Shown piece after piece: positions 3,236 to 25,241 of a stretch of DNA of 25,241 nucleotides. The stretch's first letter is position 1. Each line of letters begins with the position of its first letter. The stretch covers positions 1 through 25,241 of IMG/VR virus record IMGVR_UViG_3300010318_002693. One strand, 5' to 3'. This DNA is from a virus. Below the pieces are notes generated by a model that did no database searches, had not been told where the DNA came from, and saw nothing but the letters and a program-made list of their open reading frames with translations. A program made the translations under genes and the position numbers.

Positions 3236-3640
3236 ATGACTATCAATAAGGTTTCTCAATCCGTTAAGTCGCTAACACCACAATTTATTGAGGACGATAA
3301 TCCTCTATTCAGTAAGTTTATTGAATATTATTATAGGTCTCAGGAAAAGACTGGTTATGGTCAGAATATCCTGAATCAGTTTTTGTCGTATATGGATATC
3401 GACAAACTGAATGTCGATATTTTAGATGGTGCTACAAAGGTTGTAGAATCTATTGATGCTTCTGCTGATACTATCATTGTTGAAAATATTGATAGTTTTC
3501 TAGAGAATGACGGCACGGTATTAATTGATGATGAAGTAATCTATTACGAAAAAGCAGTTGCATCCCCTAGTGTTGCACTAAGTCCTGGTATTTCGTACGA
3601 ACAAGTAAAATTAAAGTGGAATATTCTTTCCAATCCAATT
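3236..3640 (+). other. Baseplate-type module, first half (N-terminus of giant protein)
   Basis: Residues 1-135 contain TPQFIEDDNPLFSKFIEYYY followed by ILNQFLSYMDIDKL. In many tail proteins of large myoviruses I recall an acidic 'F-I-x-x-D-x-P-x-F-x-x-F-x-x-x-Y-Y' stretch leading to a 'DID' segment and then directly into the sequence that appears here only at 5192-5485. The segment VLIDDEVIYYE at about residues 97-107 resembles the short G-x-I-x-I-D-x-E-x-I-x-Y beta motif found again near 5750. Confidence 0.6.
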
Positions 3641-12600: not shown

Positions 12601-15600
12601 GACTGGATCTGGCGCAGATCTTGAAGTTGTCATTCCTCCATTTGGCACAGGGGCATCTATCTTTACCAAGGGCACAAACGTTGGTAAGATCAAAAAACTC
12701 CAAAATAACAACTTCGGTTATGACTACACTCATGACTACACTCTGCGTCCCGAAATCACTTTCCCAATCAACGCACAGCTAACTTCCACAAGCATTCTTG
12801 CTAATATTACAGTAACCGATCCTGGATCTGGTTACTCTCAAGCACCTGCGGTTATTATTACTGGTGGTGGTGGATCTGGGGCAACTGCTGAAGCAACGAT
12901 TAAAAATGGTCGTCTTGATCAAATTATTGTTAAGGATCCTGGATCTGGATATTCTTCTACACCAACTGTAAGTCTAAGATCTTCCTTTAACTATGTTGTT
13001 AACCTTGACCTGGGCATTCTACAATTTGCTTTCCCACATGGCATTCAAAATGGTGCAGAGGTCACTCTGAATGTTGTTGATACTGGCGATGGCGCAGAAT
13101 TCCCACTAGCATCTGGTGCTCTTGGTAGATTAAATGGTAATACTACTTACTATGCGATTGCTGGTGCTGCACAGTCTCTAGAAGGCGATCAACTAAGATT
13201 GGCAATTACTCCAACAAACGCAGAATTGGGTGATGCAATCGCTTTTGCTAATGCTGGCACTGGCAGACAGCAAGTTTTGACTGAATCTTTCGGTGCAACT
13301 GCTGAAGCAAATGTTGTTACTTCTACCTTCCTTGAGGGTGAATTGGTTTATCAGGGCGCAACTTTTGAAACCGCAACTGCAACTGGTTATGTCTCTACAA
13401 ACAGTGGTTGGCAAGTTGGTCCAAGAATTCTCAAGATCGTTGACTATGATGGTGAATTCTTTGAGGGTGAGAGAATTACTGGTGTTATCTCTAAGTCTTC
13501 TGGTATTATTAGCGATTTGAATATTGCAACTGGTGTCCTTGAAATTGGTCCTATCACCAAGACCACAGGTCAGTTTATTGATGATGTGGGCAAACCTTCT
13601 GAAATTATTCAGAAGATTCAAGACTCCTATTACTATCAAGACTTCTCATATGCCATCGACTCTTCAGTATCGATTAGTGAATGGAAAGATATTGTCCTCA
13701 AGAATGTCCACCCAGCATCCTTCAAGGTGTTTGGTCAACTTAATGTCTCTGATTCTGGATTTATCCCTAATAAGGAATTGTCATTTGAATTAACTAAGTC
13801 TGTTGAGTTGGCAAGAGAAGCAATTGTCCCCAATATTCAAAACTTTGCTCTTGTTGAGCCAATCTATCAAGAGTTTAATAATACTGAAGTCTTATTCAGA
13901 CAAAAAAGATTGACTTCTTCGGAGAATATCTTGACCTCCGTTGTCCAGCGACTTGATGATATTTCTGAATTATTTGATGGTGTTAGAATTTCATTCCCAT
14001 TGACTATCAATGGTAATAATGTGGTCGCCAATGCAAATCAATTAATGATTGTCTTGAATGGTGTCATTCAAACTCCAAATGTTGCATTTGAAGTCCAATC
14101 CGACTCGATTGTCTTTAGTGAGCCACCCGCTCCGCCCGCTAGCGTTAAGTATGTTAATGTTACTGTTGAGCAAATTGATACTTTCTATTATGTTTTTCTT
14201 AATGAAAGTGGTTTTGATCCTCGTCCTGGTGATCAAATTGTTGGCATTACAACTGGAGCAAGAGCAACTGTAACTAAAGTTGATCCACTAGCGGTTTCAA
14301 CAACAGTTAATGGAGTAACCACGACAGTAAATTATACTAGATTTGCTGCATACCCAACTGAAGGTACATTTGATCTTGCGGGCAATGAGTTATGCACAAT
14401 TAGTGCCGTTGGATTCTCTGGTAATCTTGAGAGCATCACCGCTATTACAAACAATGGATTATTCCAATTTGGAGAAACTGTCCGTAATTTTGATGGTGAT
14501 ACTGCAAAGGTTGAGGAAATCAACCTCGCCAAGGGTCAGGAAACACCTCTTGCTAAGTTAAGATACACTGTCGGCACATCAACGTTAAATCTTGAAGTAA
14601 TTGCTTCTGATGGCACTTTGGGTCCAATCGCAGATGGTGTATTTGAGGTTGGTCAAAATTATCAGTTGGCATCGGAAATTTTCACTGTTAATGGAATCAC
14701 AAATAATAACGATTCTACAATCCTCGCAGTGAGTAGAGCGCAACTTGGCACAACTGCAATTGCACACCTCGAAAATACTCCTCTTTATGGCACGGATATT
14801 GAAATTACAGACAAGTTAATTCTTAGCAAGACAACGGGCACATATCAATCCACTCCTGGTTTGTATGATATTCAGTTGAATGATGTTATTATTGCTGCTG
14901 GATCTAACGTTGTTGCAAGAGTAACCGCAACTTCTCCATATCAAGATCCAACAACTCAGGAATTTATTCCTCAGGTTAACATTTCCGAAGGATCTTCTTT
15001 CTTTGGGTTCTTATTCAACAGAATCACCTCTACTACATATCCAAATATTGTCCTTGATGACCTTTCCCAGTCTCAGGTTTCTATTGTAAACTATACCGAC
15101 AATAGCACTGCATTTGATAATATTTTCCCTGCTAATGAAATTATTAGCAACTATGTAATTACAACAACCAATCAAACTGGTAATTTAAGCGAAAATGAGT
15201 TTATCCGAAACTATAAAATTGACTTTGGGTCGCCTAAGACTGGTTATGATTTTGGTCCTAGCCAACCAGCGGCGATTAGAAAACTAACCTTCAAGAATAG
15301 TGTTGGTGATGGATTCTTCTCTGCTGGTCAGGTCATCAGGACAGAAACCAGTAAAGCAGAAGTCATTGGTTATAACCAAGCAAGAAAGACTCTTTATCTT
15401 GGTAGACTTGGTAGATCTACTGGCACTGGTGAGGATGTCCATAAGTTTACTTTCTCTGGAAATGCTGCACTATCTACCGATCAGAAGAGATTTGGTCTAA
15501 CTTCCCTTTATCTGGATGGCACTGGTGATATCTTGGAGGAAGCGTCTTCTAGTGATTATGCAATTGGGTCTTCCAACTACACTTTAGAAATGTGGATTCG

Positions 15601-18600
15601 TGCAGATGCTGCTGCTCTAACTGGTACTGCAAACCTAATTGATATGAGAGCTGGCGGCGTTGACGTTGCTATGAGACTCTTTTTAGATAATGGTCAAGTT
15701 AGATTTAATGTTAATGGCACAGATCTTCTCAACTCTGGAACCACATTAATTAATAATGATACTTGGACTCATATTGCGGTTGTTAGGGATGGCACAGATA
15801 TTGAATTATTTGTTGGTGGTGTATCTGTAGGCACTAGCACTGATGGTAGCAACTATGCAGCAAAACCAATGAAGATTGGTGCGGCATTTAATTTGGGTAA
15901 TGAATACACTGGGTATATTGATGAGATCAGATTCTCTAACAATGCTCGTTATACCGCAGCGTTTACTCCCTTCAGCGGATTCTTCCAAGGTGATGCAAAC
16001 ACACTTCTGCTTCTTCACTTTGAAGGTGCTGATGGACAAACTTATGCTGATGACTGGTCTGGCACTGCTACCTGGACTAACGGTGATGAGTTTGCAAATG
16101 ATTCTATCCTTGCGACTACTCGCTCCAGCTCTGCAACTCCTTCTGGTTTCGCTGGTAAGTCCTTCCGATATCTCGACGCAGCAGATTTGATTCTTGCTAA
16201 CAAGGACTTTATTGCTGCTGAAGCAGTTTATCAACTGGAAAACTCTTCTCCATATGCACCATTTAGTGTTCCAGGTGGCACAGCAACATATGTTGGTTAT
16301 GTTGCCCAAATGTTAACCGAGATTGCAGATGACCTTCGCAATGGAAGCAACAGCAATATTTGGGATATTGCTGATCTATATGTTGATCGTGAAGCAAATC
16401 CAATCACTGTCCAACGTGTTGATGGTGAGGAAACTGAGGCAGTTTGGTTGTTTAACTTAGCATCTACTTTTGCTAAGAGTGCAATCAATAACCAAACGAT
16501 CACTGTAACTGGATCTCATGGTTTGACACAAACTGTTGATAATACCATCACCGATTCTGGTGATGATGGAAATGGTGCATATACCTCTGGTGATTGTGCA
16601 GATGTCCAAACTACCATTGATAACCTGACCGATATTCTTACGGATACAATCGACAATGCTGTTTTGGGTGTCCCTGTTGATCATCTTGCTAGTGTAACAA
16701 GAGTTACTCCTGCATATGAATTCCAAGGTGGATCTGTTGACGCATTCTTTGAAGTGCCCTTCACGATTACTCAGGTCGATAATCCTAATGAGTATGTTTA
16801 TACCAACCAAATTGATGCAGACACTCGTTATAGATTCTTCGATGGTGCAAATCTAATTCGTCTCAATAGAGGTGCAATTGTAGATAAGGCAGCATATGAT
16901 ATGCTACAACGCTATCCAGACCTTGCTACAGACATGCCTAGAAATGGCGATGGCACTGGATCTGGCACAACCAGATGTAAGACTGATTTGGGTCTCATCT
17001 TAGACAATCTTGTGAAAGATATTGAGGTTGGTGGTAACTTTAATACAATTACAGCAATCAAGAGTTATCTTGGTGCTAATGATGAAATTGAATATATCAG
17101 ATTGCAACTTCTCCAGTCGCTGTATGCACATACAAGACTTGGTTACTACATGAAGCAAGCAATCACTGGTGATTTGGATGATACAAATACCGATCAAATT
17201 ATCATTGGCGATTGGGGCATTACTAATGATCCTGGTGGTTGTGCAAATGTCAAGACAGCAATTGATACTCTAATTGATCTTGCTAACGATACTCTCGCTC
17301 CTACAGGACATCGTTTCAGGGATGGTGGAGATCTTCTCTACTTCAACAGAGACTTTATTGCTGATGAAGCATTGGGAATTACCGATGCCGAATTCCAATA
17401 TAGTCTTAACGGTGTTATTTACAATGGATTCCAATATCCAGATGGTATAAATGGCAGAAATCGTTGTAAGGTCGATATTTCCCTAACCTTAGATAGTGTT
17501 ATTAGTGATCTTCTGACTGGTGGTAACAGCAATACAATTAAGGCACTTGAATATTACATTAATGCTTCTGGTGGTATCGTATTCGTTGAGGATGAGCTTC
17601 TCGCAACAGTTTATGCATATCAGCAGGTTAAATTCTTGGGTGCTAAGGCAATTAATAATTTACTAGTCCCCAACCCAGGCACTTTGCCCGTTGGTGCTGG
17701 TGAATATTTTAGACAATATGCTACAGATGCCAATGGTAACATCATTGAGCCATATAGAGACACAACAATCACTGACTCTGGTGATGATTCTGATCCTGGA
17801 TATACCTCTGGAGATTGTGTAAACGTAGTCAATGCGTTTAACACTCTAATGGACATCTTGATCGATGGATTGACTCCTGCCGATACGGAAGGTAGAGCAT
17901 CACAAAGATTGGTCCTCTTTAACAGAAACTACTTTAGTGAAGAATTGACAAACCAAGTCAATACTCAATGGGGTGCAGGTTCTTGGACTAGTGAATATCA
18001 AACATTCCTCGATACTGTTGTTGATGATGTAATTCATGACTCGTTGATTACCGACACTTCTTCTAGTAATGTCTTAACGACAGCAGTAAATGTTGATTAC
18101 TCCATTCCTACTGGTAATGGTTTCTTTGCGGTGGGTGATGCAGTCAGTTGCTCTGTAAATGGTGTGGTGGTTGCTACTGCTACCGTATTAGAAGTTAAGT
18201 CTTCTAGAGAAATGGTAATCGGTTATATTACTGGTGGTTGGACAATCTTCAACGCTAGAATTCTAGGTCCAAACGTAACCTTCTTTGGTGGAGCATACTT
18301 TACTAGCAATGGACCTAATAATGGTCTCAGTCCTAGCTATGACTGGATTGATGAAGTTGCTAACGTCCAAACTCTATCTCACGCAAGAACAATCACATCT
18401 ACAATTACAGGTCAGGTTGCTGGCACTAATCTGTGGACAAATCCTGAGCAACTATTAAACAATTGGTCAACTTATTATTTTATCCCATATCAAGATGATC
18501 AATTCTCTCCCGATGGTATTCTGAATGCTGAAAGATACTCAGCATCAAACACTTACCAAAGACATTGGATTCAAAGAGGTTATACTCTGAATCCCCTGCA

Positions 18601-21316
18601 GACGTACGACACTACTTTTGTAAGGTTTGACTCCGACGTTGAAACTTTTGATACTGGTGCTCTTGAAGGCACCCAGCAATTCACTTTCTCTGTCTTTGTT
18701 AAGGGTTTTGGTAATTATAATTACGGAAAACTGCAACTTGAAGTAACTGGCACTAATCATGCTCCATTTACAGCATTTTTCAACTTCAATATGAATGATG
18801 GATCAATCGGATCTCTATTCCAAGATTATGCGGTTACAATCGATGATTTTGGAATGATTCCATCTGGTAATGATTGGTTTAGAGTATACATGACTATTAG
18901 CATTGGACAAGGTTTTAATACTCTACAAGTTAAACTCTTTAGCAGGAACAATTTTGGTCAAGAAGTCTATACTGGAAATAACTATGGTGGAATTTCTGCT
19001 TGGGGTGCAAAACTTGCTCAAGGCACTCTTGATCCATATCTATCTCAAAATAACATCACATATTACGCTGATGAGGACTACAATATTAAGTCTTTCATCT
19101 TAGATACTGTTGACACTTATATTGAAGATGCATTAGAGCAAACACTTCAAGAGCCCTCTCCAAATGCATCATTCTTTACATATACCAATTCCACTCTTGG
19201 TGCTCAATATAATGCTAATACATTCTCCAGAATGTCTAGAAGTCTAATTGATATTATTAGACAGCAAGTTAAACTGGATACTTATTATACAAATCTGAAT
19301 AATATCTCTGGCACGAGTATTCCTACCAGCACTTATGGCACTAGAAATATTCCAATACCTCTTGGTGGTGGAATAACTCAGGCAGATCATTTCTATGCTC
19401 TAAGCACAGACTCCTATGCTGAAGTCCAAAATGTCAGTGGAAATGAGGCTCGCGTAGTCAAGTCTTACACTAGATTCAGAATTGAAGGTGATATTACTGA
19501 TGGACCATTCACTATGAATGAAACTGTCCAGAAACAAGGTGATGCTGGTGTAACTGGCGTTGTCTATGGATTCTTTGAAGATGAAAACTTCTCTTATGTT
19601 GACATTGAAGTGACTGCTGGTACTTGGGCATTACTTGACACTATTGTTGGTGATGAAAATGGCACTACCGCACAAATTGGTGCCATCGAGACCAGAGTCC
19701 AAGTTAATGACTTGATTGGCAATTTTGAAACTAACATTGAGTGGAAGGGTTATACTTCTGGTGAAACTGGTGAAACAGTAACGTTCATTAAAGCAGAAGG
19801 TGCGGTAACGGATAACACTGGTGGTAAACTAAGTGTTGATACTGATAGTTTGGTTGGATCTTTTGAGACAACTAGTGTAGTTTATCCCGAAGCATCTAGA
19901 CAATACATCGATGTTATTCAATATGCTGGATTTGATCCTCAACTTGGCACCATCGTTTCTTCTCTTGGATATGAAAGATATCAACTATCTTACATTGGTA
20001 ATTTCCAGACGTTTGAAGTTAATAAGAGAGTATATAGAATTAATAATGGTATTTTGGATCCTAATGCTTATGGTGTAATTGTTGAAGTTGATACTCAAAA
20101 TAATTACATTTACGTCAATGTGATTTCTGGCACAATTTCTACTGGCAATATTGTTGGTGAATATGGAGATGGCACTACGGATCTTCGTGGATATGCAACT
20201 GTTGCTGCTAAGGTTACGACTACAGGCGCTGGTGCTGCAAGAATTCAGGATGTAAGGACCATTGGCATTTATAAGAGACTATATCTGACCGAATTGGTTG
20301 GTGTAATCAATAAGAGAGATGCAATTCAGGGTATTAATGGATTCCGCGCATCCATCTTTGCAAGTGGAGAATTGAAGGCTCGCGTGAAGAGATCCTTCAG
20401 AGGTTTTGATGGTGTCCAAACCACCTTCGATCTCACCACCAACAACGGTGATGCATACTTCCCCGATCCCGAAGGTCATATGTTGATCTTCGTCAACGGC
20501 ATTCTGCAACCTCCTGGTGCTGCCAATGCATATACAGCATTCTCCAACCAGATTCAGTTTACTGAGCCTCCTACCTCAGGATCTGTGTTTACTGGATTCT
20601 ACGTTGGTAAACTGAGACAGTTGGATGATATCTCCTTTGACTTCGACTCGCTTAGACAGTCCTTTAACCTCAAGCGTAACGGCGTTTTCTACTCGCTAAC
20701 GCTGACGGAAGGTGTCCAGTCCACCACGATCAGACCCGAAAATAATATTATCGTTTCTCTCAACGGTGTTATTCAGGAACCTGGAGTTGGTTTTGAGATT
20801 GTTGGTTCTAGAATTATCTTCTCTGAAATTCCTCGCGTGGGATCGACCTTTGTCGCATTCTCCTACGTTGGATCTGAAGCGGACGTTGATGCTGCTGAGG
20901 TTGTCCCACCAATCGAGCCTGGTGATCTTCTCCAGATTGATGGTGAAACCGAAGATCGTGAAGTTGCCGTTATTGAATCGTCCAACTCGCTAATTACCTT
21001 CGATTATCTTGGATCTGTCTTTGGTAAGGATGCTGCAGCAACTGCAGTATTAACAACTGGTGTCCTGGATAAAGTATTCGTTACCGCTCCTGGATCTGGT
21101 TACACTTCCAGACCAAACGTCAGAATCGACTCTATCTCTGGTTTTGATGCTCAAATCAAGGCACTAGTTGGTGTTGGTGGTGTAGTTGTTTCTAGTGCTG
21201 GTAGCGGTTATCAAGAAACTGCGATTGCGGTTGAAACGACAGTTGATGATGATTGGGTTGCACCCGATTTGAGCCTCTATGGCGAAGAGGTTATTGATCC
21301 TGAGATCATTCAGTAA
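3236..21316 (+). CDS. Giant modular baseplate/tail structural protein, 6026 aa
   Basis: A single intact frame of 18,081 bases encodes a protein of roughly 640-650 kDa. It begins 5 bases after gp6, where T4 has gene 7 (gp7 is 1032 aa), so a baseplate-attached role is inferred from position and from its N-terminal module. I see, in order: baseplate-type module half A, two beta units, eight G-x-G-Y repeats, module half B, YHYH-like half A, six more repeats, YHYH-like half B, an EF-hand-type loop, a propeller-like region, LamG-like domain 1, a cupredoxin-like remnant, more G-x-G-Y repeats, a YYQDFSY motif, a beta unit, LamG-like domain 2, four cysteine-bearing repeats, a carbohydrate-binding-like jelly roll, two beta units and two final repeats. 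The content suggests a long adhesin or periphery of the baseplate. Codon style is uniform apart from about 20380-20940. Proteolytic maturation is possible but not visible. Calling it gp7 would go beyond the sequence. Confidence 0.92.
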   Translation: MTINKVSQSVKSLTPQFIEDDNPLFSKFIEYYYRSQEKTGYGQNILNQFLSYMDIDKLNVDILDGATKVVESIDASADTIIVENIDSFLENDGTVLIDDEVIYYEKAVASPSVALSPGISYEQVKLKWNILSNPINNFDGVTQRFPLLSQDNPVAPPSAAHLLIKLYGRYLIPDIDFTVEGDDVIFTVAPREKLISDDAVETSVIFYNGFVENTIYTLDNISSQFTSGKKSFSISRGGQSYQPIVDEYVIAYYDGTLLTPKTDYSFDGNLITFSFEPIPGRLLHLFSIEAPIPSFGSGAVGYSRVNDVGQITSIEVSNTGSGYKIEYPPKITINSERGQNASARPLINGIEKVTLLEGGRGYSSTNPPTVSIEDPTEDGAALPKIEAVVENGSVTSLNVINSGSGYTFTPRLSFVQPGGAELRKPTLIAGSVAGPINILNPGQGYTTAPAIYVDEPTGENGIKASLRAVVTDGKITSVEILNAGQGYEIEPRIAVIDPVGAQVLETRVDGNGRVINIELLNGGSGYEDIPSVYIVDNRVDPITGAYAGGSGATAAAAIFNGQITDINVTNFGSGYSADFPPKVVIQSPPKASASAEIGLGKVTGFAIIQSGEGYEKCRLEGCARAASGISGYTEDGNVRFTNNTVAAAHSKDSEVKCLDSLFVKRLLDKFTEQYLPDVPQLDYKSIDVRNAIKNIKTFYSTKGTSFSVAYLFKLLYGENVSISYPRDQIIKPSAATWSINTVLRAKLVSGNPVDIQDGLLQQLEDIADANVKPASALVENYISIKTSESEIYELVLSEETIDGNFVVPYKTKLAEPLTETTDIITVDSTIGWPERNGEFIIGGSEVVRYKEKSLNQFIECTRAISGVAQVWDSATEVSSNFRVYINKDTAQEVVMDITGIVDAQQTTLTDTGSYYLPGDKLSISKLGGTSQSPLLTTWLYNVKKLLEVESITFGGVNNQSATVTCASPHGLLVGDQVTVYGANPILYNGTFLVTSRDSTTVFQYRLPQPAAVEPQGNILISVDLNKGKSLNNAIQNTISPYTTNIQNSFFNDNYVYVASTGIPNYNIGPFPGSALLPGNQRKLNRFFQSPTTISTKTEIVPGSMGTWVNGVSMWSYKSTQTKTFGAVTSISINERGAGYDAANPPRITIEGGGGSGASANVVVDGSLDSVEVTNGGSGYTSSPLVSIVGGGGSGAAATAIITKGQVSRILVNQGGSGYTSQPQITIVGGGGSGAAGTASVRGPIKEVSINVGGASYTSEPKVVLSSGAGAVAQAIVNNGRIISIAIISAGSGYTTAPEVTIQGDGFGAVARATIDIDGENAGKVTGIEIINKGIGYSQGTTVINLTSVGQGATFTANVFKWTYNLQETTEFDSAKGAIFVGLNNQYGGEYAHLSNPQRLRYILGDNLFETSTGLIQEQEDQLDHSPIIGWAYDGNPVYGPYGYEDPTNQGSNIARMRSSYGLKTNLVYDEITNISPSRVDGPSLNDEPAGRFVEDYEYIFNGGDLDQYNGRFCKTPEFPDGRYCYFVTIDASDDGNPVFPYVLGSSYNSVVDQWNLVDSAVQQNIPTGVIRYRDPYENVDIDVERTPNASTNALTLENGDFLTFDVEDENRDGVITQDEIDDPDQIFEEAPLQLFDYFPKVKIDSKVDIEVETISKFENAAVTGFTIENAGQNYQINDRLIFDNTDTDGQGASARVSRIVGESITNYTFETVEGINYGVLTTQQPHNLIAGDNIFVDYTPIMNNTNKEFVVRQYKGIEEIKITQTGSGYNSDIPPTIVVDGDGESGQVEAVVSSVGSISSFNIINSGNGYTRNPRLILSHPQIFKKADYYISLLENNNYVKINDVVVNDAKEVFICGKSTDAQGDTVGFVAKLSATGNKDWQRTLEATAPSPGPTYMEFNKLYVDGNNIWVVGNSRPNISVLDAYNPDVVLAKYTQAGNGLSATIDFQRAYAGISGSTRADVVTSLEKLSDTRFIMGGYTNTNSGSPYDAFLAVVDTSGSFVAKRKLASNNKSEKITSIKKTDNGVYFSIETALSANGVDVNTGIGKVSISTSLISVDWIKEVSNSTYSFLDSSLDADEFGEFYLSATLREKASDTTRDSFWVGKFDADASAIWNYRYLAGNSQISLAQKCKVDIFGNLNVAYTQQDAATDDIFVGNVKIRYDGKIVKHTVNNFDTDGTKENNIEGLVVNSIDVDNSGDVHIFGQTKWNRNEVITAFDGNANDITTHHTIEVVGETNGGAEYADNVLKLFGYTTGNQAVWDNSYVKVPAATLGEKFNGDFTIEFLLYKEAANSQTLSQTVQTLIGIGGARDTSGGLWMGYDIASGELQLVISNNTTALTSAGAGLSSTQVTMFADNTWQLIGLKKEGDVFTGYVNGIQVFTGSVSNTSLGDKDLYIGNQIGWGATATDFLATYQGQYYLKNLRVKNRAVTPTTPSDITTIPSNGAFGFAYDWTDDAWFTAYLARYDWIDYVGYGLKVDKDSDAERVGSLGIITNTQIDLSRSVVPPVTGVALTINNVGYALGSAGFQTLDFNDATITYSQDTLTIASTRDVWSSRTATVPSPGSQKVIAEAIVRDRYYFKVTDTLKIDNVQELTINQDFKFTVGAKLTLSTDGGSFINSGYIVDVDSENNKVYLAVNINEWSNDLNTGRLTTSRFDEQETFGIRGPIPNDVNEITNYVFTDVVNTTPGTFDIDLNDYNLDRTENPGAGDLDSFAVFKPYDVNDYSIFIEEVAGGSAFIPGSVVSVPSNQVTYNADYNTIQITGLTGVLRITVATNLTKILQATAVANSDLVYVVTDGTHYLSVGENIFVDGNPSQEINSVVYDEYDGSFFVESVISIKEFTYRLPETAVTLPASTASNVSIFIKSPTLKMYYGHQYIFDLSHSSLAGSNLSFSKDSLYKLEYSFNSIERVGTPGVQGGGVTPTVKLKVDRGILTNISYYFDPSRTGEDSPVTEGSYLDVVDSPYVGTFEVTSTSGGTITTGDNTMRFKLVNEPEGDADVAQAKYTTSSEKAVGSIGDIRIVNAGGFYTRLPVVTGILSNRKIERIQINDPGTEYAVGRYDSVPIAGDGEGGLVSIIVEDTTDDEGNTIQGQITSVTVTAAGKGYTTASIDVESIDGILGPGLTGSGADLEVVIPPFGTGASIFTKGTNVGKIKKLQNNNFGYDYTHDYTLRPEITFPINAQLTSTSILANITVTDPGSGYSQAPAVIITGGGGSGATAEATIKNGRLDQIIVKDPGSGYSSTPTVSLRSSFNYVVNLDLGILQFAFPHGIQNGAEVTLNVVDTGDGAEFPLASGALGRLNGNTTYYAIAGAAQSLEGDQLRLAITPTNAELGDAIAFANAGTGRQQVLTESFGATAEANVVTSTFLEGELVYQGATFETATATGYVSTNSGWQVGPRILKIVDYDGEFFEGERITGVISKSSGIISDLNIATGVLEIGPITKTTGQFIDDVGKPSEIIQKIQDSYYYQDFSYAIDSSVSISEWKDIVLKNVHPASFKVFGQLNVSDSGFIPNKELSFELTKSVELAREAIVPNIQNFALVEPIYQEFNNTEVLFRQKRLTSSENILTSVVQRLDDISELFDGVRISFPLTINGNNVVANANQLMIVLNGVIQTPNVAFEVQSDSIVFSEPPAPPASVKYVNVTVEQIDTFYYVFLNESGFDPRPGDQIVGITTGARATVTKVDPLAVSTTVNGVTTTVNYTRFAAYPTEGTFDLAGNELCTISAVGFSGNLESITAITNNGLFQFGETVRNFDGDTAKVEEINLAKGQETPLAKLRYTVGTSTLNLEVIASDGTLGPIADGVFEVGQNYQLASEIFTVNGITNNNDSTILAVSRAQLGTTAIAHLENTPLYGTDIEITDKLILSKTTGTYQSTPGLYDIQLNDVIIAAGSNVVARVTATSPYQDPTTQEFIPQVNISEGSSFFGFLFNRITSTTYPNIVLDDLSQSQVSIVNYTDNSTAFDNIFPANEIISNYVITTTNQTGNLSENEFIRNYKIDFGSPKTGYDFGPSQPAAIRKLTFKNSVGDGFFSAGQVIRTETSKAEVIGYNQARKTLYLGRLGRSTGTGEDVHKFTFSGNAALSTDQKRFGLTSLYLDGTGDILEEASSSDYAIGSSNYTLEMWIRADAAALTGTANLIDMRAGGVDVAMRLFLDNGQVRFNVNGTDLLNSGTTLINNDTWTHIAVVRDGTDIELFVGGVSVGTSTDGSNYAAKPMKIGAAFNLGNEYTGYIDEIRFSNNARYTAAFTPFSGFFQGDANTLLLLHFEGADGQTYADDWSGTATWTNGDEFANDSILATTRSSSATPSGFAGKSFRYLDAADLILANKDFIAAEAVYQLENSSPYAPFSVPGGTATYVGYVAQMLTEIADDLRNGSNSNIWDIADLYVDREANPITVQRVDGEETEAVWLFNLASTFAKSAINNQTITVTGSHGLTQTVDNTITDSGDDGNGAYTSGDCADVQTTIDNLTDILTDTIDNAVLGVPVDHLASVTRVTPAYEFQGGSVDAFFEVPFTITQVDNPNEYVYTNQIDADTRYRFFDGANLIRLNRGAIVDKAAYDMLQRYPDLATDMPRNGDGTGSGTTRCKTDLGLILDNLVKDIEVGGNFNTITAIKSYLGANDEIEYIRLQLLQSLYAHTRLGYYMKQAITGDLDDTNTDQIIIGDWGITNDPGGCANVKTAIDTLIDLANDTLAPTGHRFRDGGDLLYFNRDFIADEALGITDAEFQYSLNGVIYNGFQYPDGINGRNRCKVDISLTLDSVISDLLTGGNSNTIKALEYYINASGGIVFVEDELLATVYAYQQVKFLGAKAINNLLVPNPGTLPVGAGEYFRQYATDANGNIIEPYRDTTITDSGDDSDPGYTSGDCVNVVNAFNTLMDILIDGLTPADTEGRASQRLVLFNRNYFSEELTNQVNTQWGAGSWTSEYQTFLDTVVDDVIHDSLITDTSSSNVLTTAVNVDYSIPTGNGFFAVGDAVSCSVNGVVVATATVLEVKSSREMVIGYITGGWTIFNARILGPNVTFFGGAYFTSNGPNNGLSPSYDWIDEVANVQTLSHARTITSTITGQVAGTNLWTNPEQLLNNWSTYYFIPYQDDQFSPDGILNAERYSASNTYQRHWIQRGYTLNPLQTYDTTFVRFDSDVETFDTGALEGTQQFTFSVFVKGFGNYNYGKLQLEVTGTNHAPFTAFFNFNMNDGSIGSLFQDYAVTIDDFGMIPSGNDWFRVYMTISIGQGFNTLQVKLFSRNNFGQEVYTGNNYGGISAWGAKLAQGTLDPYLSQNNITYYADEDYNIKSFILDTVDTYIEDALEQTLQEPSPNASFFTYTNSTLGAQYNANTFSRMSRSLIDIIRQQVKLDTYYTNLNNISGTSIPTSTYGTRNIPIPLGGGITQADHFYALSTDSYAEVQNVSGNEARVVKSYTRFRIEGDITDGPFTMNETVQKQGDAGVTGVVYGFFEDENFSYVDIEVTAGTWALLDTIVGDENGTTAQIGAIETRVQVNDLIGNFETNIEWKGYTSGETGETVTFIKAEGAVTDNTGGKLSVDTDSLVGSFETTSVVYPEASRQYIDVIQYAGFDPQLGTIVSSLGYERYQLSYIGNFQTFEVNKRVYRINNGILDPNAYGVIVEVDTQNNYIYVNVISGTISTGNIVGEYGDGTTDLRGYATVAAKVTTTGAGAARIQDVRTIGIYKRLYLTELVGVINKRDAIQGINGFRASIFASGELKARVKRSFRGFDGVQTTFDLTTNNGDAYFPDPEGHMLIFVNGILQPPGAANAYTAFSNQIQFTEPPTSGSVFTGFYVGKLRQLDDISFDFDSLRQSFNLKRNGVFYSLTLTEGVQSTTIRPENNIIVSLNGVIQEPGVGFEIVGSRIIFSEIPRVGSTFVAFSYVGSEADVDAAEVVPPIEPGDLLQIDGETEDREVAVIESSNSLITFDYLGSVFGKDAAATAVLTTGVLDKVFVTAPGSGYTSRPNVRIDSISGFDAQIKALVGVGGVVVSSAGSGYQETAIAVETTVDDDWVAPDLSLYGEEVIDPEIIQ
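3638..4108 (+). repeat. Tandem pair of 'NGVIQ' beta units (copies 1 and 2 of 5)
   Basis: Two consecutive units of about 75-83 residues share the order: F-D-G-V or similar entry, a polar strand, a hydrophobic strand (LLIKLYGRYLIPDIDF; YVIAYYDGTLLTPKTDY), then a D-x-I-x-F-type strand (GDDVIFTVAP; GNLITFSFEPIPG). Later copies at 13949-14180 and 20384-20893 carry the clearer consensus 'VxLNGVIQxPxxxFxVxxSxIxFSExP'. These first two copies are the most diverged. Confidence 0.6.
4124..5092 (+). repeat. G-x-G-Y repeat array 1 (eight copies)
   Basis: Codons for the G-x-G-Y tetrad start at 4193, 4310, 4442, 4559, 4685, 4802, 4949 and 5066. Four of the seven spacings are exactly 117 bases (39 residues); the others are 126, 132 and 147. 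The unit consensus is roughly 'I-x-x-I-x-V-x-N-x-G-S-G-Y-x-x-x-P-x-I-x-I' then a Gly/Ala-rich turn and a short strand. The repetition is at protein level; the DNA copies have diverged, so this is an old array. Such units occur in large bacterial and phage surface proteins and probably stack as beta structure. Confidence 0.85.
5192..5485 (+). other. Baseplate-type module, second half
   Basis: The segment contains LFVKRLLDKFTEQYLPDVPQ, IKNIKTFYSTKGTSFSVAYL and LLYGENVSISYP. This matches the remembered pattern 'F-x-x-x-F-x-x-x-x-L-P-x-I-P ... I-x-x-F-Y-x-S-K-G-T-x-x-S-Y-x-F-L-F-x-x-L-x-x-x-x-V-x-I-x-Y-P' of tail proteins in large myoviruses, where it follows the DID segment immediately. Here about 590 residues separate the halves. 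A GWPERNGEFIIGGSEVVRY beta motif follows at about 5720-5785. Confidence 0.65.
6374..6607 (+). other. YHYH-like domain, first half
   Basis: The segment has YVYVASTGIPNYNIGPFPG, then NRFFQSP, then a GSMGTWVNGVSMWSY ending. The YHYH family pattern I know runs 'I-x-S-N-G-L-P-x-H-x-x-G-x-F-P', 'F-R-I-P' and 'G-x-x-G-V-x-V-N-G-V-P-x-x-N-P', so order and spacing agree. The family's role is unknown; it is frequent in marine phage and bacterial surface proteins. The second half resumes at 7361 after a repeat array. Confidence 0.6.
6608..7318 (+). repeat. G-x-G-Y repeat array 2 (six copies)
   Basis: Tetrad codons start at 6641, 6761, 6878, 6992, 7103 and 7232, with spacings of 120, 117, 114, 111 and 129 bases. 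The first three copies are followed by a perfect glycine-rich turn (G-G-G-G-S-G-A). These are the most regular copies in the protein and look younger than array 1. The array separates the two halves of the YHYH-like domain. Confidence 0.85.
7361..7900 (+). other. YHYH-like domain, second half
   Basis: It opens with GGEYAHLSNP, which sits where the His-rich YHYH stretch should be, then PIIGWAYDGNPVYGPYGY (motif core at 7532-7564), matching 'I-G-x-x-x-D-G-x-P-I-Y-G-P'. Downstream DQYNGRFCKTPEFPDGRYCY and PVFPYVLGSSY complete the form seen in marine phage proteins. Only one His remains in the eponymous stretch, so any metal or catalytic role is doubtful here. Confidence 0.68.
8057..8092 (+). other. 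EF-hand-type calcium-binding loop
   Basis: Residues 1608-1619 of the giant protein read DENRDGVITQDE. Positions 1 (Asp), 3 (Asn), 5 (Asp), 6 (Gly), 8 (Ile), 9 (Thr) and 12 (Glu) all fit the canonical EF-hand or dockerin loop. The flanks are acidic but not clearly helical, so it may be an isolated calcium loop that stiffens a linker. Confidence 0.7.
8216..8698 (+). repeat. Degenerate G-x-G-Y copies with a PHNL beta motif
   Basis: A weak copy (ENAGQNYQINDRLIF) is followed by PHNLIAGDNIFVDY, one of five 'P-H-G-L-x-x-G-D-x-V' type motifs, then two good copies, TGSGYNSDIPPTIVV and SGNGYTRNPRLIL. This block links the YHYH-like domain to the propeller-like region. Confidence 0.65.
8711..9940 (+). 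other. Beta-propeller-like region
   Basis: About 410 residues show repeated 'V-x-x-D-x-x-x-N-x-x-V-x-G' plus 'x-A-K-L-x-x-x-G' strands: VFICGKS with FVAKLSATGNKDWQRTL; IWVVGNS with VVLAKYTQAG; RFIMGGYTNT with FLAVVDTSGSFVAKRKL; FYLSATLRE with FWVGKFDADASAIWNYRY; LNVAYTQQD with VGNVKIRYDGKIVKH; and VHIFGQTKW. That makes about six blades of 60-70 residues, in the style of delta-60 or SBBP propellers. No catalytic residues stand out; a binding or spacer role is likely. Confidence 0.55.
9953..10540 (+). other. LamG/concanavalin-like domain 1
   Basis: The segment contains FNGDFTIEFLLYKE, a LIGIGG strand, GLWMGYDIASGELQLVI, WQLIGLKKEGDVFTGYVNGI and YLKNLRVKNRAV. This order is the LamG-like jelly-roll pattern of 'x-F-T-I-E-x-W', 'W-x-x-I-x-x-x-R-x-G-x-x-x-x-Y-V-N-G' and 'Y-x-x-x-x-R-I-x-x-x-A'. 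Such domains in phage tails usually bind carbohydrate or protein on the host surface. Confidence 0.7.
11840..12067 (+). other. Cupredoxin-like remnant without copper ligands
   Basis: MYYGHQYIFDLSHSSLAGSN followed by LSFSKDSLYKL resembles the 'R-G-x-T-Y-x-F-D-x-S-x-x-S-x-x-H-P-x-x-F-S' opening of the cupredoxin-like domains at 22258-22572 and 24248-24604. The strand that should hold the Cys-x-x-His pair reads NISYYFDPSRTG and lacks both. Assignment rests on this pattern only. Confidence 0.4.
12260..12990 (+). repeat. G-x-G-Y repeat array 3
   Basis: Degenerate copies (NAGGFYTRLPVV; PGTEYAVG; AGKGYTTASIDV) lead to two clean ones with tetrads at 12824 and 12941, again exactly 117 bases apart; the first carries the G-G-G-G-S-G-A turn. 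A Tyr/His stretch, NNFGYDYTHDYTLRP, interrupts the array at about 12710-12750. Confidence 0.78.
13628..13738 (+). other. YYQDFSY tail-protein motif
   Basis: YYYQDFSYAIDSSVSISEW followed by VHPASFKVFGQ matches a motif I recall from many marine phage tail proteins ('Y-Y-Q-x-x-S-Y-x-I ... W ... H-P-x-G-x-x-x-F-G'). No fold or role is known to me. It closes a run of 'G-E-x-I-x-G-x-x-S' beta hairpins from about 13330. Confidence 0.5.
13949..14180 (+). repeat. 'NGVIQ' beta unit (copy 3 of 5)
   Basis: It begins RLDDISELFDGVRISFPL, then has MIVLNGVIQTPNVAFEV and SIVFSEPPAPP. The LDDIS entry is shared with copy 5 at 20621, and LNGVIQ is shared exactly with that copy. It stands alone in the middle of the protein, whereas the other four occur as pairs near the ends. 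Confidence 0.7.
15434..16075 (+). other. LamG/concanavalin-like domain 2
   Basis: The segment contains FGLTSLYLDGTGDIL, NYTLEMWIRADAA, WTHIAVVRDGTDIELFVGG, MKIGAAF and GYIDEIRFSNNARYTAAFTP, then LLLLHFEGADGQ. This is a fuller match to the LamG-like jelly roll than domain 1, including the W-T-H-I-A-x-x-R-D-G strand and the I-D-E-I-R-x-S exit. A host-surface glycan or capsid-decoration role is inferred. Confidence 0.8.
16163..18062 (+). repeat. Four-copy helical repeat with paired cysteines
   Basis: Copies begin at 16163, 16829, 17309 and 17888 (the last is truncated). Each opens with 'R-x-x-D-x-x-D/N-L-I-x-x-N-R/K-x-x-I-x-x-E-A' (DAADLILANKDFIAAEA; FDGANLIRLNRGAIVDKAA; DGGDLLYFNRDFIADEA; LVLFNRNYFSEE). 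Copies 2 and 3 continue with R-C-K-x-D, a helix 'L-x-x-I-x-x-D-L-x-x-G-G-N-x-N-T-I-x-A', a second helix with an A-x-x-Y tail, and G-x-C-x-N-V leading to a leucine-rich helix. Copies 1 and 3 share TITDSGDD and YTSGDC almost exactly. I know of similar units in other cyanophage structural proteins but no named fold. Confidence 0.75.
18422..19057 (+). other. Carbohydrate-binding-like jelly-roll domain
   Basis: It starts GTNLWTNPEQLLNNWS, has PDGILNAERY, QFTFSVFVKGFG, a WFRVYMTISIG strand and ends GISAWGAKLAQGTLDPYL. Phage tail and fibre proteins often carry a domain with the same order: 'N-L-L-x-x-S-E-x-x-x-x-W', 'A-P-D-G-x-x-x-A', 'x-F-S-x-Y-x-K', 'W-x-R-x', 'W-G-A-Q-L-E-x-G-x-x-x-x-Y'. These are predicted carbohydrate-binding modules. 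Confidence 0.65.
20384..20893 (+). repeat. Tandem pair of 'NGVIQ' beta units (copies 4 and 5)
   Basis: Copy 4 has FRGFDGVQTTFDLTT, MLIFVNGILQPPG and IQFTEPPTSGS. Copy 5, from 20621, has LDDISFDFDSLRQSFNL, IIVSLNGVIQEPGVGFEIVG and IIFSEIPRVGS. The pair mirrors the one near the N-terminus. The DNA here uses more C-ending codons than the surrounding gene. Confidence 0.75.
21056..21250 (+). repeat. C-terminal G-x-G-Y repeats (two copies)
   Basis: Tetrads start at 21092 and 21200 (108 bases apart): APGSGYTSRPNVRI and SAGSGYQETAIAV. They close the giant protein, followed by an acidic tail ending EEVIDPEIIQ. Confidence 0.75.
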
Positions 21317-21345: not shown

Positions 21346-22575
21346 ATGGCAAAACAACTGCTGGCTCTTGGTAATGCGCCTAATGACAATACGGGGGATA
21401 CCCTGAGGAATGGTGGTGACAAAATTAATGACAACTTTAATGAAATTTACAGTGCTCTTGGTAATGGCAATGCGATTTTAATTTCTGGTATTAGTAATGC
21501 TGGTAATGGTCAGGTATTAAAATATAATGGCACAAACGTTGTGCCATCTGACTTCAATCTATTGACAGATAATCTGGACGTTAACAGTAATACAATTGTT
21601 TCTTCATCCAATGGAAATATTGCTGTTGCTCCAAATGGCACAGGCAATATCACTCTTTCTCATGCCAGCGTCACAAATACTTTTGATGGCACATCTGGAG
21701 AAATTGATTTACCAACTAAAGTAAAATATAAAAACGAATTTACTACTCTTGCTGCAGCACCTGCAGCAGCAACTTATCCTGGTTACTTCTTCACTGTTGA
21801 TGGTGATGACAACCCATATGTAAACATCAACATTACTGCTGGTGGTGTTGGCGACGTTAGGGCAGCACTTCTAACTCAGTATTCTGGTATTGATGATTTA
21901 CTCGACGTTGATACAACCACATCTGCTCCTACAAATAATCAAGTTTTGAAGTGGAATTCCTCTTCATCTAAATGGGTGCCTGCAGATGACGAAGCAGGTG
22001 TTTCGTCTATTAATGTTTTTGCAACTGTTGCTGGTGATACAGGATCTACAAGTGCTGATAGTCAAACTGATACTCTAACGATCGCTGGTGGTAATAATAT
22101 TGTAACGGCGGTTAGTGGTGATACGGTAACGGTCAGTTTTAATGGCACTTTGACCACCACATTTGCTGCTCTTACCGATTCCGATGTTACGGGAATTACA
22201 CAGGGCGATTCGTTGTATTGGAATGGCACCGATTGGGTTGTTACCCGCAGTCCTATGACGTGGTGGGAATTGAATGTAAATGGCACAAGTGATTGGACAT
22301 TCAATGGTCCTGGATTTGCTGGTGCTACTAACGACCCAACAATTTATGTGCATCGTGGATTTACCTATGCATTTGACAATTCGATCAATGGGGGAGCACA
22401 CCCATTCCGAATTCAATCTACGCAGGGTCTAACAGGCACTCCATACACTGCAGGTCAGAGTGGTAGTGGCACCAGCGTATTGTATTGGACCGTCCCTATG
22501 GACGCTCCTACCACACTTTATTACCAATGCACTAACCATGCTCTGATGAATGGCACTATCAACGTAGTAAGTTAA
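21346..22575 (+). CDS. Tail-fibre-like protein with C-terminal cupredoxin-like domain, 409 aa
   Basis: The N-terminus has the attachment-type motif I associate with T4-like marine fibres and whiskers: ALGNAPNDNTGDTLRNG followed by KINDNFNEIYSALG (residues about 7-39). Three short fibre units follow with a 'G-x-x-L-x-W/Y-N-G-T-x-W' core: GQVLKYNGTNVVPSD (from about 21508), NQVLKWNSSSSKWVPADD and GDSLYWNGTDWVV (about 22204). The shaft is rich in Asn, Thr, Gly and Asp. The last 105 residues form a cupredoxin-like domain (separate entry). The likely role is a trimeric fibre or fibre tip reaching the cell surface. There is no signal peptide, as expected for a virion protein. The following gene begins 7 bases after the stop, so the two are probably co-expressed from the late-promoter-like motif at 21320. 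Confidence 0.8.
   Translation: MAKQLLALGNAPNDNTGDTLRNGGDKINDNFNEIYSALGNGNAILISGISNAGNGQVLKYNGTNVVPSDFNLLTDNLDVNSNTIVSSSNGNIAVAPNGTGNITLSHASVTNTFDGTSGEIDLPTKVKYKNEFTTLAAAPAAATYPGYFFTVDGDDNPYVNINITAGGVGDVRAALLTQYSGIDDLLDVDTTTSAPTNNQVLKWNSSSSKWVPADDEAGVSSINVFATVAGDTGSTSADSQTDTLTIAGGNNIVTAVSGDTVTVSFNGTLTTTFAALTDSDVTGITQGDSLYWNGTDWVVTRSPMTWWELNVNGTSDWTFNGPGFAGATNDPTIYVHRGFTYAFDNSINGGAHPFRIQSTQGLTGTPYTAGQSGSGTSVLYWTVPMDAPTTLYYQCTNHALMNGTINVVS
22258..22572 (+). other. Cupredoxin-like domain with full type-1 copper ligand pattern
   Basis: It begins WWELNVNGTSDWTFNGPGF, continues IYVHRGFTYAFDN, GGAHPFRI and a WTVPMDAPTTLYYQC strand. The ligand candidates are His352 (codon 22399), Cys395 (22528), His398 (22537) and Met401 (22546). 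The C-x2-H-x2-M spacing equals that of amicyanin, and the His lies 43 residues before the Cys, as cupredoxins require. Copper binding itself is inferred. Confidence 0.7.
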
Positions 22576-22582
22576 TTGATAA

Positions 22583-25241
22583 ATGGCAAGAGAAATTCCT
22601 GGATCTGGTGCTGTAATCAAACCGATCTTCAATGAAGTTTATGGTGTAAGAGCAGTAAAAGTTTTGGATGGTGGTGAGGGATATACCTCTTCCGATCCTC
22701 CAAAACTTACTGTGACTGGTTGCGGCACACCAGTTGTGGAAGCGTTGTTGTATCCAATCATTGATGATGATTCGGGTAGAATTGTCCACGTTAGAGTTTT
22801 AGAAAGTGGTAGCGGATACGATCCCCTCAGGTTATCGATTGTACCAGAGCAAGAAACTCCCAACGTTGTCACATCATTTGATATCAATCGAGTTTGGCAA
22901 AGAAACCCAAATTCCACAACTACAGGAACATTTTCAATAGTTGGTGGTGATGTCACCGATAGACTAAACATTGTTAGTGATAATCACCCCAAACCAGCAG
23001 AGATCACTGGCGAGAGAGTTTTTGAAGGTGGATCTATCAATGATAGAAACTTCAACCAAACTTTTATCTATCGTGGTGGTAAAGACGTGCCCTTTGCTGG
23101 CACCAGAGCAGATCAAAGAGATAAAGCAATTGGCATCATGGCAAATGGTGTCTTACTTCATACTCCAGAATGGGGAGTTGATGGCGGAGCACCAATAAAC
23201 TTTAATATTGACACGGTAAAATACTCATACATTAAGGGTAATGATGTATATGATGGCGTATTAGAATCAAATAATTATTTCTATCAGTCCTCTAGGTTAA
23301 TCAACCATTTTTCACCAAGATATAGTGTGTTTGAGAATGGTCTTCTCAAACAATATACTTGGAGAATGATCAGGGAGGCAGGCAATTTCAGAATTACTCC
23401 TTCGGATATTTCTCAATTGACAGGAAATATTGAGAGGGGTATTAATGTAGTTTCTACCACTGGTAATGGTGTTGCAACAGTTGCCAAAGTTGTTAGAAAC
23501 AACAGTGGAGATATAACCGATATTTATCTTAGGGCAGTAACTAATTCGTTTTCTGCTGGTGAGACACTTCTGGGATCGAATGGATTTACATTTACTATTA
23601 ATACTATTCTTCCTGTAAGAGTTTACTATATCAACTTTGGTGAGAATGCAGCAGAGTTTGGCAACTTTGAAAATAATGAGTGGTATTTGGAGCCTGGAGT
23701 CCAAGTAAAGGCAAATCAACAAATTATTATTGATCAGAGCGATCCATCAAATAATCCTCCAACAACATCTCATCCAGTCCAATTCAGCATAACACCTAAC
23801 GGTGCTTTTGCTGGTGGCGAATTATATTATGATGATCCTCAGGGAGCACCAGTTGTGGACTACTCGGATCAATTCCGTGTAACCTTTATCATGAGTCCTA
23901 ACGAGAATCGTAGGATTTATTATTACTGTAAAAATCATGGATCGTATCATCCAGAAGAAGCATATATTGAGTTATCCGCAGTAACAGATACTTCTCCCAG
24001 ACCAAATAATTATTATACTTCAACATATTATACTGACGGAAGCAGCATTGATTACTCTCGTCACGCTAATGGACACTCAAAGATTTTGGGTCTCTCTTTT
24101 GATGGATATCCAATTTACGGACCATATGGATATAATTCCAGCAATACTGTTGCTAGGATACAATCTTCGTATCGTCTCAAAGTTGGTGATGAAGTTGACG
24201 GCACAAGACCCAAACAAACAACTGCTGGGACGGTTACATATGCAGTAACTGTAGTTGGAGATAAGTTTTATATTGATGGAAGTTTATCTCTATTCCTTCA
24301 GTTAGACAGAGGTAAGACATACGTTTTTAATCAAAATGATGCTTCCAATGTCGGAAAATTTGCTCTTTTTAGTCAAACAGAAGATGGGTGGCATTCTGCC
24401 ATAGACATAGGTAATACTTCATATCTTTACGAGAATGGAGTAACTTATTATATTGATGGATCTGCGGTAACTTATCAGAATTATATTTCTGGATTCAATA
24501 GTGCTACTACGAGAGAAGTGAGAATTACTCCGAGAGTAGATTCGCCAAGACTTCTTTATATCTTTGCTTATAGCACTTCGGGTCTTGGGTTTAGAATGGT
24601 CCAAGATGGTTACATTCTTGGAGATTTAGTCCAAGACTATATTTTTGATTCTACTGTCGGTGATTTAGATGCATATAATGGTAAATTTGCGGTAACACCA
24701 GAATATCCAAATGGGACATATGCATATTTCATGACAGAAGACGGCAGTGGAGATCCTGTCTATCCTTATGTAATTGGTCCTCAATTCTACGGGAATCCAA
24801 TTTTTGAAGGAGATGTTATACCCGATCAAGTAACAGAATTCCCATCTGGTGCCGAAGGCGACATTATTTTGAATTCTGATGGATCAGTTAATTATGTTAA
24901 AATCACAAAAACTGGCGATGGTTATTTTGGACCAACACAAGCAAAAATTCTTGGTGGTGAAGGAAGTGGTGCTGTAATTAGTCCAATTGTCCAAACAATT
25001 ACTGGTCTAACCTTACTGAATGGTGGTAGAAATTTTGCAACTCCACCAACGTTGATTTTTGAAGGTGGTGGATCGGGTCAAGGCGCTCGTGGTGCTGCTG
25101 AAATTGATACTAATGGTAGAGTTACTAGAATTGATGTTGTGGATTCTGGTGAATTCTATGAAACTCCTCCATTTGTATTGATTACTGGCGGCGGCGGATC
25201 GGGCGCTAAAGCAGTTGCAAGAATTGATCAGGGAGAAGTCG
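22583..25241 (+). CDS. Large mosaic tail structural protein, 3' end outside the window
   Basis: From ATG 22583 the frame stays open to the window end, giving 886 residues of a longer protein. It starts MAREIPGSGAVIKPIF. Two G-x-G-Y copies come first (tetrads 22673 and 22808), then FDINRVWQRNP, a RVFEGGSINDRNFNQTFIY segment, YHYH-like first half (IGIMANGVLLHTPEWG, then YFYQSSRLINHF), a cupredoxin-like domain, YHYH-like second half interrupted by another cupredoxin-like segment, and at the end three more G-x-G-Y-type copies (tetrad positions 24914, 25025, 25148) with G-G-G-G-S-G-A turns. The parts list is the same as in the giant protein, so both probably descend from a common module pool. The start is 7 bases after the previous stop; TTGATAAATG at the start is one base off a late-promoter motif. 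A tail fibre or baseplate periphery role is inferred. Confidence 0.85.
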   Translation, partial: MAREIPGSGAVIKPIFNEVYGVRAVKVLDGGEGYTSSDPPKLTVTGCGTPVVEALLYPIIDDDSGRIVHVRVLESGSGYDPLRLSIVPEQETPNVVTSFDINRVWQRNPNSTTTGTFSIVGGDVTDRLNIVSDNHPKPAEITGERVFEGGSINDRNFNQTFIYRGGKDVPFAGTRADQRDKAIGIMANGVLLHTPEWGVDGGAPINFNIDTVKYSYIKGNDVYDGVLESNNYFYQSSRLINHFSPRYSVFENGLLKQYTWRMIREAGNFRITPSDISQLTGNIERGINVVSTTGNGVATVAKVVRNNSGDITDIYLRAVTNSFSAGETLLGSNGFTFTINTILPVRVYYINFGENAAEFGNFENNEWYLEPGVQVKANQQIIIDQSDPSNNPPTTSHPVQFSITPNGAFAGGELYYDDPQGAPVVDYSDQFRVTFIMSPNENRRIYYYCKNHGSYHPEEAYIELSAVTDTSPRPNNYYTSTYYTDGSSIDYSRHANGHSKILGLSFDGYPIYGPYGYNSSNTVARIQSSYRLKVGDEVDGTRPKQTTAGTVTYAVTVVGDKFYIDGSLSLFLQLDRGKTYVFNQNDASNVGKFALFSQTEDGWHSAIDIGNTSYLYENGVTYYIDGSAVTYQNYISGFNSATTREVRITPRVDSPRLLYIFAYSTSGLGFRMVQDGYILGDLVQDYIFDSTVGDLDAYNGKFAVTPEYPNGTYAYFMTEDGSGDPVYPYVIGPQFYGNPIFEGDVIPDQVTEFPSGAEGDIILNSDGSVNYVKITKTGDGYFGPTQAKILGGEGSGAVISPIVQTITGLTLLNGGRNFATPPTLIFEGGGSGQGARGAAEIDTNGRVTRIDVVDSGEFYETPPFVLITGGGGSGAKAVARIDQGEV
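23126..23310 (+). other. YHYH-like domain, first half (last gene)
   Basis: IGIMANGVLLHTPEWG corresponds to the 'G-V-x-x-N-G-V-P-x-x-N-P' step of the YHYH family, and DVYDGVLESNNYFYQSSRL to the 'G-x-Y-H-Y-H' step, with Phe-Tyr-Gln replacing the His residues. The second half begins about 740 bases later. Confidence 0.55.
23690..23982 (+). other. Cupredoxin-like domain with partial ligand set
   Basis: PGVQVKANQQIIIDQSDPSN leads to SHPVQFSI with His397 (codon 23771); later RIYYYCKNHGSYH holds Cys449 (23927), His452 (23936) and His456 (23948). The His, Cys and His of a type-1 site are present, but the axial Met is replaced, possibly by His456 at x3 spacing. This might bind copper in a type-2-like or altered site, or be structural only. 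Confidence 0.5.
24056..24781 (+). other. YHYH-like domain, second half (last gene), interrupted
   Basis: RHANGHSKILGLSFDGYPIY with GPYGY (core at 24098-24133) matches 'I-G-x-x-x-D-G-x-P-I-Y-G-P'. The closing part, DAYNGKFAVTPEYPNGTYAY then DPVYPYVIG, is very close to the closing part in the giant protein at about 7750-7870. Between them lies an inserted cupredoxin-like segment. Confidence 0.65.
24248..24604 (+). other. Cupredoxin-like segment with all ligands lost
   Basis: LFLQLDRGKTYVFNQNDASN then VGKFALFS aligns by eye with VHRGFTYAFDN...GGAHPFRI of the tail fibre. The first ligand His is Lys or Phe here, and the C-x2-H-x2-M strand reads LLYIFAYSTSGLGFRM without Cys or His. The fold may persist as a structural module. 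Confidence 0.45.

Follow-up and report, generated by a model that had tools for sequence, protein, structure and literature searches.

The C-terminal domain of a T4-like gp9 encoded in the window (the whole stretch of viral DNA analysed here, 25,241 nucleotides) is predicted to be a cupredoxin with an intact type-1 copper site. We propose, at a probability of roughly 0.45, that this domain is a virion module acting as a copper-locked docking head at the joint between the long tail fibre and the baseplate.

Gene identity and predicted fold of the gp9 domain

The window is closely related to the cyanophage S-RIM4 (MK493321), a Synechococcus phage of the Kyanoviridae, with 97.3% DNA identity over 15 kb. 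The gp9 reading frame matched the full-length phrog_677 profile across residues 1-408 (E 7e-196) and passed PF07880, T4_gp9_10_N (33.4 bits against a cut-off of 25); its counterpart in S-RIM4 and other phage records also carry the gp9 connector annotation. In a PDB sequence search, the N-terminus matched T4 gp10 (1.1e-6) and T4 gp9 (1.1e-4, residues 3-62), and sequence similarity to T4 gp9 was not detected beyond residues 3-62. The probable identity as gp9 rests on this N-terminal region, the PHROG profile and the gene order. The initial annotation had placed the domain at the tip of a tail fibre; given the homology to gp9, this position is replaced by the C-terminal end of the connector. In T4, the long fibre is attached coaxially to the C-terminal domain of gp9 (PMC3004832), and by analogy the C-terminal domain of cyanophage gp9 would lie at the same place. 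The features are listed in Table 1.

Table 1. Positions of the gp9 gene, its domain and putative ligands, and the neighbouring wedge protein in the window
Feature	Position	Strand	Basis
T4-like gp9, baseplate wedge / long-tail-fibre connector, 409 aa	21346..22575	+	phrog_677, PF07880, S-RIM4 annotation
N-terminal baseplate-binding region, residues 1-48 (putative)	21346..21489	+	T4 gp10 / T4 gp9 PDB sequence matches
Cupredoxin domain (predicted), residues 301-409, C-terminal	22246..22572	+	Model pLDDT 94.3; copper proteins in Foldseek and VIA-align; plastocyanin/amicyanin profile matches
His352 codon, putative Cu ligand	22399..22401	+	Invariant in 60/60 gp9; aligns with rusticyanin His85
Cys395 codon, putative Cu ligand, sole Cys of the protein	22528..22530	+	Aligns with amicyanin Cys92 and rusticyanin Cys138
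His398 codon, putative Cu ligand	22537..22539	+	Conservation; amicyanin and rusticyanin alignments
Met401 codon, putative axial Cu ligand	22546..22548	+	Conservation; amicyanin and rusticyanin alignments
Baseplate wedge protein phrog_708, cut by the window end	22583..25241	+	phrog_708 E 0; domain matches
Copy A of the domain, residues about 356-465	23648..23977	+	His397, Cys449 and His452 kept; Met lost
Copy B of the domain, residues about 546-690	24218..24652	+	Ligand set lost (LYIFAYSTSGLGFRM)

Elsewhere in the window, positions 3236-21316 encode a single structural protein of 6,026 aa, which would take up roughly 10% of a genome the size of S-RIM4's; its recognised parts are a YHYH domain, a laminin-G/concanavalin-like domain and glycine-rich repeats, and most of its length has no assigned family. 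A reading frame cut by the window start (1-408) matched phrog_281, 'PAAR motif' (2.4e-22), and gave a weak DddA-like Pfam match (0.038) that fell below the cut-off.

The domain of gp9 begins near residue 299-301, and residues 305-409 correspond to positions 22258-22572. A cupredoxin-type domain in a virion-type protein had been suggested by the initial annotation, which proposed structure prediction and superposition as a check, and the suggestion is borne out by the model. The AlphaFold2 prediction, computed with 26 aligned relatives, reached a pLDDT of 94.3 and contained nine strands arranged as the Greek-key beta sandwich of cupredoxins. All 15 Foldseek matches at E <0.001 were copper cupredoxins, and VIA-align superposed the model on the N-terminal cupredoxin domain of Hyphomicrobium nitrite reductase (Z 10.5, 2.4 A over 94 residues) and on rusticyanin (Z 9.3). 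By these calculations the C-terminus of gp9 is very probably a genuine cupredoxin domain.

Sequence comparison pointed in the same direction. Two profile alignments, A1 and A2, were built from the search matches; A1 had been filtered to retain sequences with C-x(2-4)-H or a named ligand-less case, and ligand conservation within A1 was therefore left out of the evidence. The profile of relatives matched plastocyanin (2.2e-6) and amicyanin (1.2e-5), and the profile of the second alignment again matched amicyanin (2.6e-5). When the single domain was searched against PDB sequences, the top match was a nitrite reductase with an engineered amicyanin loop, at a non-significant E of 0.16. The window domain gave no match above the gathering cut-off of PF00127 (Copper-bind), which one diverged phage relative passed (23.5 vs 21.2 bits); the nearest other Pfam family was PF25489 (At5g54830-like), for which a bacterial relative, at 26.1 bits, fell short of the cut-off (27). 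The domain also failed the amicyanin model TIGR02657 (13.5 vs 110.2 bits); the predicted site is of the same kind, but the protein is not an amicyanin.

Conservation and distribution of the copper ligands

The initial annotation had read His352, Cys395, His398 and Met401 as a ligand set with the amicyanin-type spacing C-x2-H-x2-M, and the translation agrees. Residues C395, H398 and M401 of gp9 were exactly in register with C92, H95 and M98 of amicyanin, and the upstream His was two residues out of register in the amicyanin profile alignment. This His aligned exactly with H85 of rusticyanin (H-P-F-R-I in gp9, H-S-F-D-I in rusticyanin), so that H85, C138, H143 and M148 of rusticyanin were the counterparts of the gp9 set; the two reference sequences of the rusticyanin-alignment step were checked by their known ligand numbering. 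When the domain sequence was shuffled 200,000 times, the pattern H-x(30-55)-C-x2-H-x2-M arose 28 times, showing that the pattern alone is only moderately unlikely and that conservation decides.

Among 60 full-length gp9 sequences, the four ligand positions had zero entropy, and the free variation of Cys395 or His352 that would have spoken against a copper site was absent (0/60). In the same sequences, positions 397, 400 and 402 varied at 1.2-1.6 bits. The ligand codons themselves varied silently across 33 distinct sequences (CAC/CAT 12/21 and 11/22 for the two His, TGC/TGT 8/25 for Cys), which argues for selection and not recent identity. C395 was the lone Cys in 58 of the 60 proteins and would thus have no disulfide partner inside the gp9 chain. 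The C-terminal domain was the most conserved region of gp9 (mean entropy 0.60 vs 0.84-0.95 in the middle). A conserved and complete type-1 ligand set in gp9 is, as calculated from these sequences, almost certain. Because the ligands are unchanged in every gp9 examined, the virus particle itself probably carries copper, and copper binding at the site is judged likely from ligand conservation.

In other contexts, the full ligand set was intact in 70 of 72 non-redundant copies, a tally in which the candidates were not ligand-filtered and the search profile was derived from A1. It comprised short proteins (20/20), fibre-type proteins (33/35) and genome contigs (17/17); one of the contig copies, L175, looks like a phage fibre that was binned with bacterial sequence. 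Variants with a longer loop, C-x4-H-x2-M, retained the ligands, and where ligands were lost, they were mostly lost as a whole set, as in copy B of the neighbouring protein and in the tail fibre of S-B05. In the latter (L090, 3001-3264), the domain is kept and the four ligand positions read F, A, V and M.

The neighbouring phrog_708 wedge protein contains two further copies of the domain, one on either side of a YHYH domain. A structure model of residues 353-702 from 12 sequences reached a pLDDT of only 50.8 and was discarded, so copies A and B are assigned from sequence alone. In copy A, His, Cys and His are kept in 52 of 53 distinct relatives, and the Met of the relatives is gone here via a short loop deletion. 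The ligand set of copy B is lost in this clade; C-x2-H-x2-M is kept in the S-RIM14 and ACG-2014d relatives. Copy B is a natural ligand-less counterpart of the gp9 domain and would be useful as a control.

The domain was matched by 361 phage records at E up to 10 and by 339 at 0.01, most of them Synechococcus or Prochlorococcus phages, including the podovirus-like P-SCSP2. Copies with complete ligands also occurred in phages of Pelagibacter (HTVC028P, Mosig), Methylophilales (Melnitz-3) and an actinobacterium. The initial annotation had listed recognition of a host plastocyanin among the possible functions; as a general role, host-plastocyanin docking is disfavoured by these copies. Viral structure matches in BFVD included proximal tail-fibre proteins of S-SCSM1 (52% identity) and P-SSM2 (42%), and the domain is also present in tail fibres from marine phages that differ in morphology. 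The domain was C-terminal in 138 of 153 carrier proteins. Exported bacterial proteins (L164, 5001-5312, and L165-L181) contain a domain 42-51% identical to a viral copy; the carriers belong to Flavobacteriaceae, Gammaproteobacteria and Myxococcota, and no Pfam family covers these bacterial copies.

Proposed role and competing explanations

In the proposed mechanism, the domain would fold without copper in the host cytoplasm and take up one Cu ion after release; the metal would then lock the ligand loop, thereby forming a rigid docking head at the meeting point of long tail fibre and baseplate. Phage assembly takes place in a cytoplasm with very little free copper, so copper loading on or after lysis is likely. 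Homologous domains were found at likely contact partners, namely the adjacent wedge protein and the proximal tail-fibre proteins. The docking role at this joint, taken from the anatomy of T4 gp9, is tentative, with the odds somewhat against it, and the C-terminal domain could alternatively be exposed and bind a host surface.

Such an exposed position would suit a role in host attachment, in which the metal-bearing domain would bind either a ligand on the cell surface or a receptor for metal uptake, comparable to the iron 'Trojan Horse' proposed for T4-type fibres. This somewhat unlikely reading agrees with the C-terminal place of the domain in most carriers and with its presence in tail fibres of varied marine phages; HxH motifs with iron, reported in tail fibres, provide a parallel, and siderophore receptors have been proposed to recognise the fibre-bound iron (PMC11705849). 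However, one intact ligand set is shared across phages of very different hosts, and conservation within gp9 is highest in this domain, unlike in a host-range tip; a hypervariable receptor tip is disfavoured on the same ground. The cupredoxin scaffold might instead be purely structural or adhesive, with the ligand residues kept for core packing and the virion free of metal. Copy B and the S-B05 fibre indicate that the scaffold can do without metal, and assembly in a cytoplasm with very low free copper would accord with a metal-free particle. We nevertheless consider this explanation unlikely, since gp9 never varies at any of the four ligand positions, its lone Cys among them, nearly all other copies keep the set, and losses are mostly joint; against the ligand-less copies, the full set kept in gp9 looks selected.

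Occupation of the site by another metal (Zn, or Cu(I) only) with a structural function alone appears highly doubtful. Type-1 sites are able to bind other soft or borderline metals, and the axial Met is missing from copy A of this phage, but an upstream His combined with C-x2-H-x2-M makes up the classic ligand set of type-1 copper, and Zn is not usually bound by Met. Redox sensing or electron transfer, in which a change of oxidation state at the site on contact with the host would help to trigger the tail, or electrons would be exchanged with host plastocyanin, is very improbable: the complete type-1 set resembles that of electron carriers, yet phages of non-photosynthetic hosts (those of Pelagibacter and Methylophilales named above) also have intact copies, no partner is known, and cyanophage plastocyanin is encoded by a separate petE gene (PMC3037559).

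An extension of the copper-locked docking head, in which each virion would have at least 18 blue-copper centres where fibre and baseplate join, filled with copper that the host releases on lysis, and the state of the metal would gate fibre deployment or tail triggering, is distinctly doubtful. The 18 sites follow the T4 stoichiometry of six gp9 trimers, and gp9 binds gp10 in T4 tail triggering (PMC3004832). A function of the virions as a copper reservoir was also considered; by a rough sum, 1e10 virions per litre with 18 sites each would hold 0.3 pM. The total copper of seawater is nanomolar, far above this amount, and the reservoir role was therefore rejected.

If copper is bound, the adsorption-controlling part of the virion in very common ocean phages would contain a metalloprotein conserved across genera, and the copper state would be a testable variable for cyanophage infectivity and stability. 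The domain also offers a handle on hundreds of unannotated structural proteins of marine phages, as copies of it turn up in fibres, wedge proteins and short proteins alike.

Comparison with known systems

Cupredoxins are already known, as is petE plastocyanin as a metabolic gene of cyanophages (PMC3037559); virion proteomes of cyanophages also exist (PMC3037559). In the open-access literature searched, no paper joined cupredoxins with phage tail fibres or virions; the new element is a conserved, complete type-1 site, as predicted, in a baseplate protein, unreported in the open-access papers covered.

The N-terminal 60 residues, gene family and gene order are common to the window protein and T4 gp9, the baseplate socket of the long tail fibre. 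The middle and C-terminal parts differ in sequence, and no C-terminal cupredoxin was detected in T4 gp9. PetE shows that the cupredoxin superfamily was already known in cyanophages; it is a separate host-derived photosynthesis gene of 108-123 codons (PMC3037559). The gp9 domain, unlike PetE, forms part of a baseplate protein and occurs in phages of photosynthetic and non-photosynthetic hosts alike. The iron-binding HxH fibres of T4-type phages share the idea of a metal-binding virion fibre (PMC11705849) and differ from the gp9 domain in metal, fold and ligand set. Bacterial carriers have the same domain, with the His-Cys-His-Met set complete in all 17 genome-contig copies (the phage-fibre-like L175 among them), but are either small exported proteins or lipoproteins of the cell that contain repeats, CHRD among them, and their function is unassigned; the domain often comes after such repeats. 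The type-1 domains of amicyanin, plastocyanin, rusticyanin and nitrite reductase share fold, strand order and ligand set with the predicted gp9 domain; amicyanin has the same C-x2-H-x2-M loop and rusticyanin the same H-x-F-x-I after the first His. Identity between the gp9 domain and these proteins is about 20%, and the gp9 domain belongs to a virion protein instead of being a free-standing periplasmic electron carrier.
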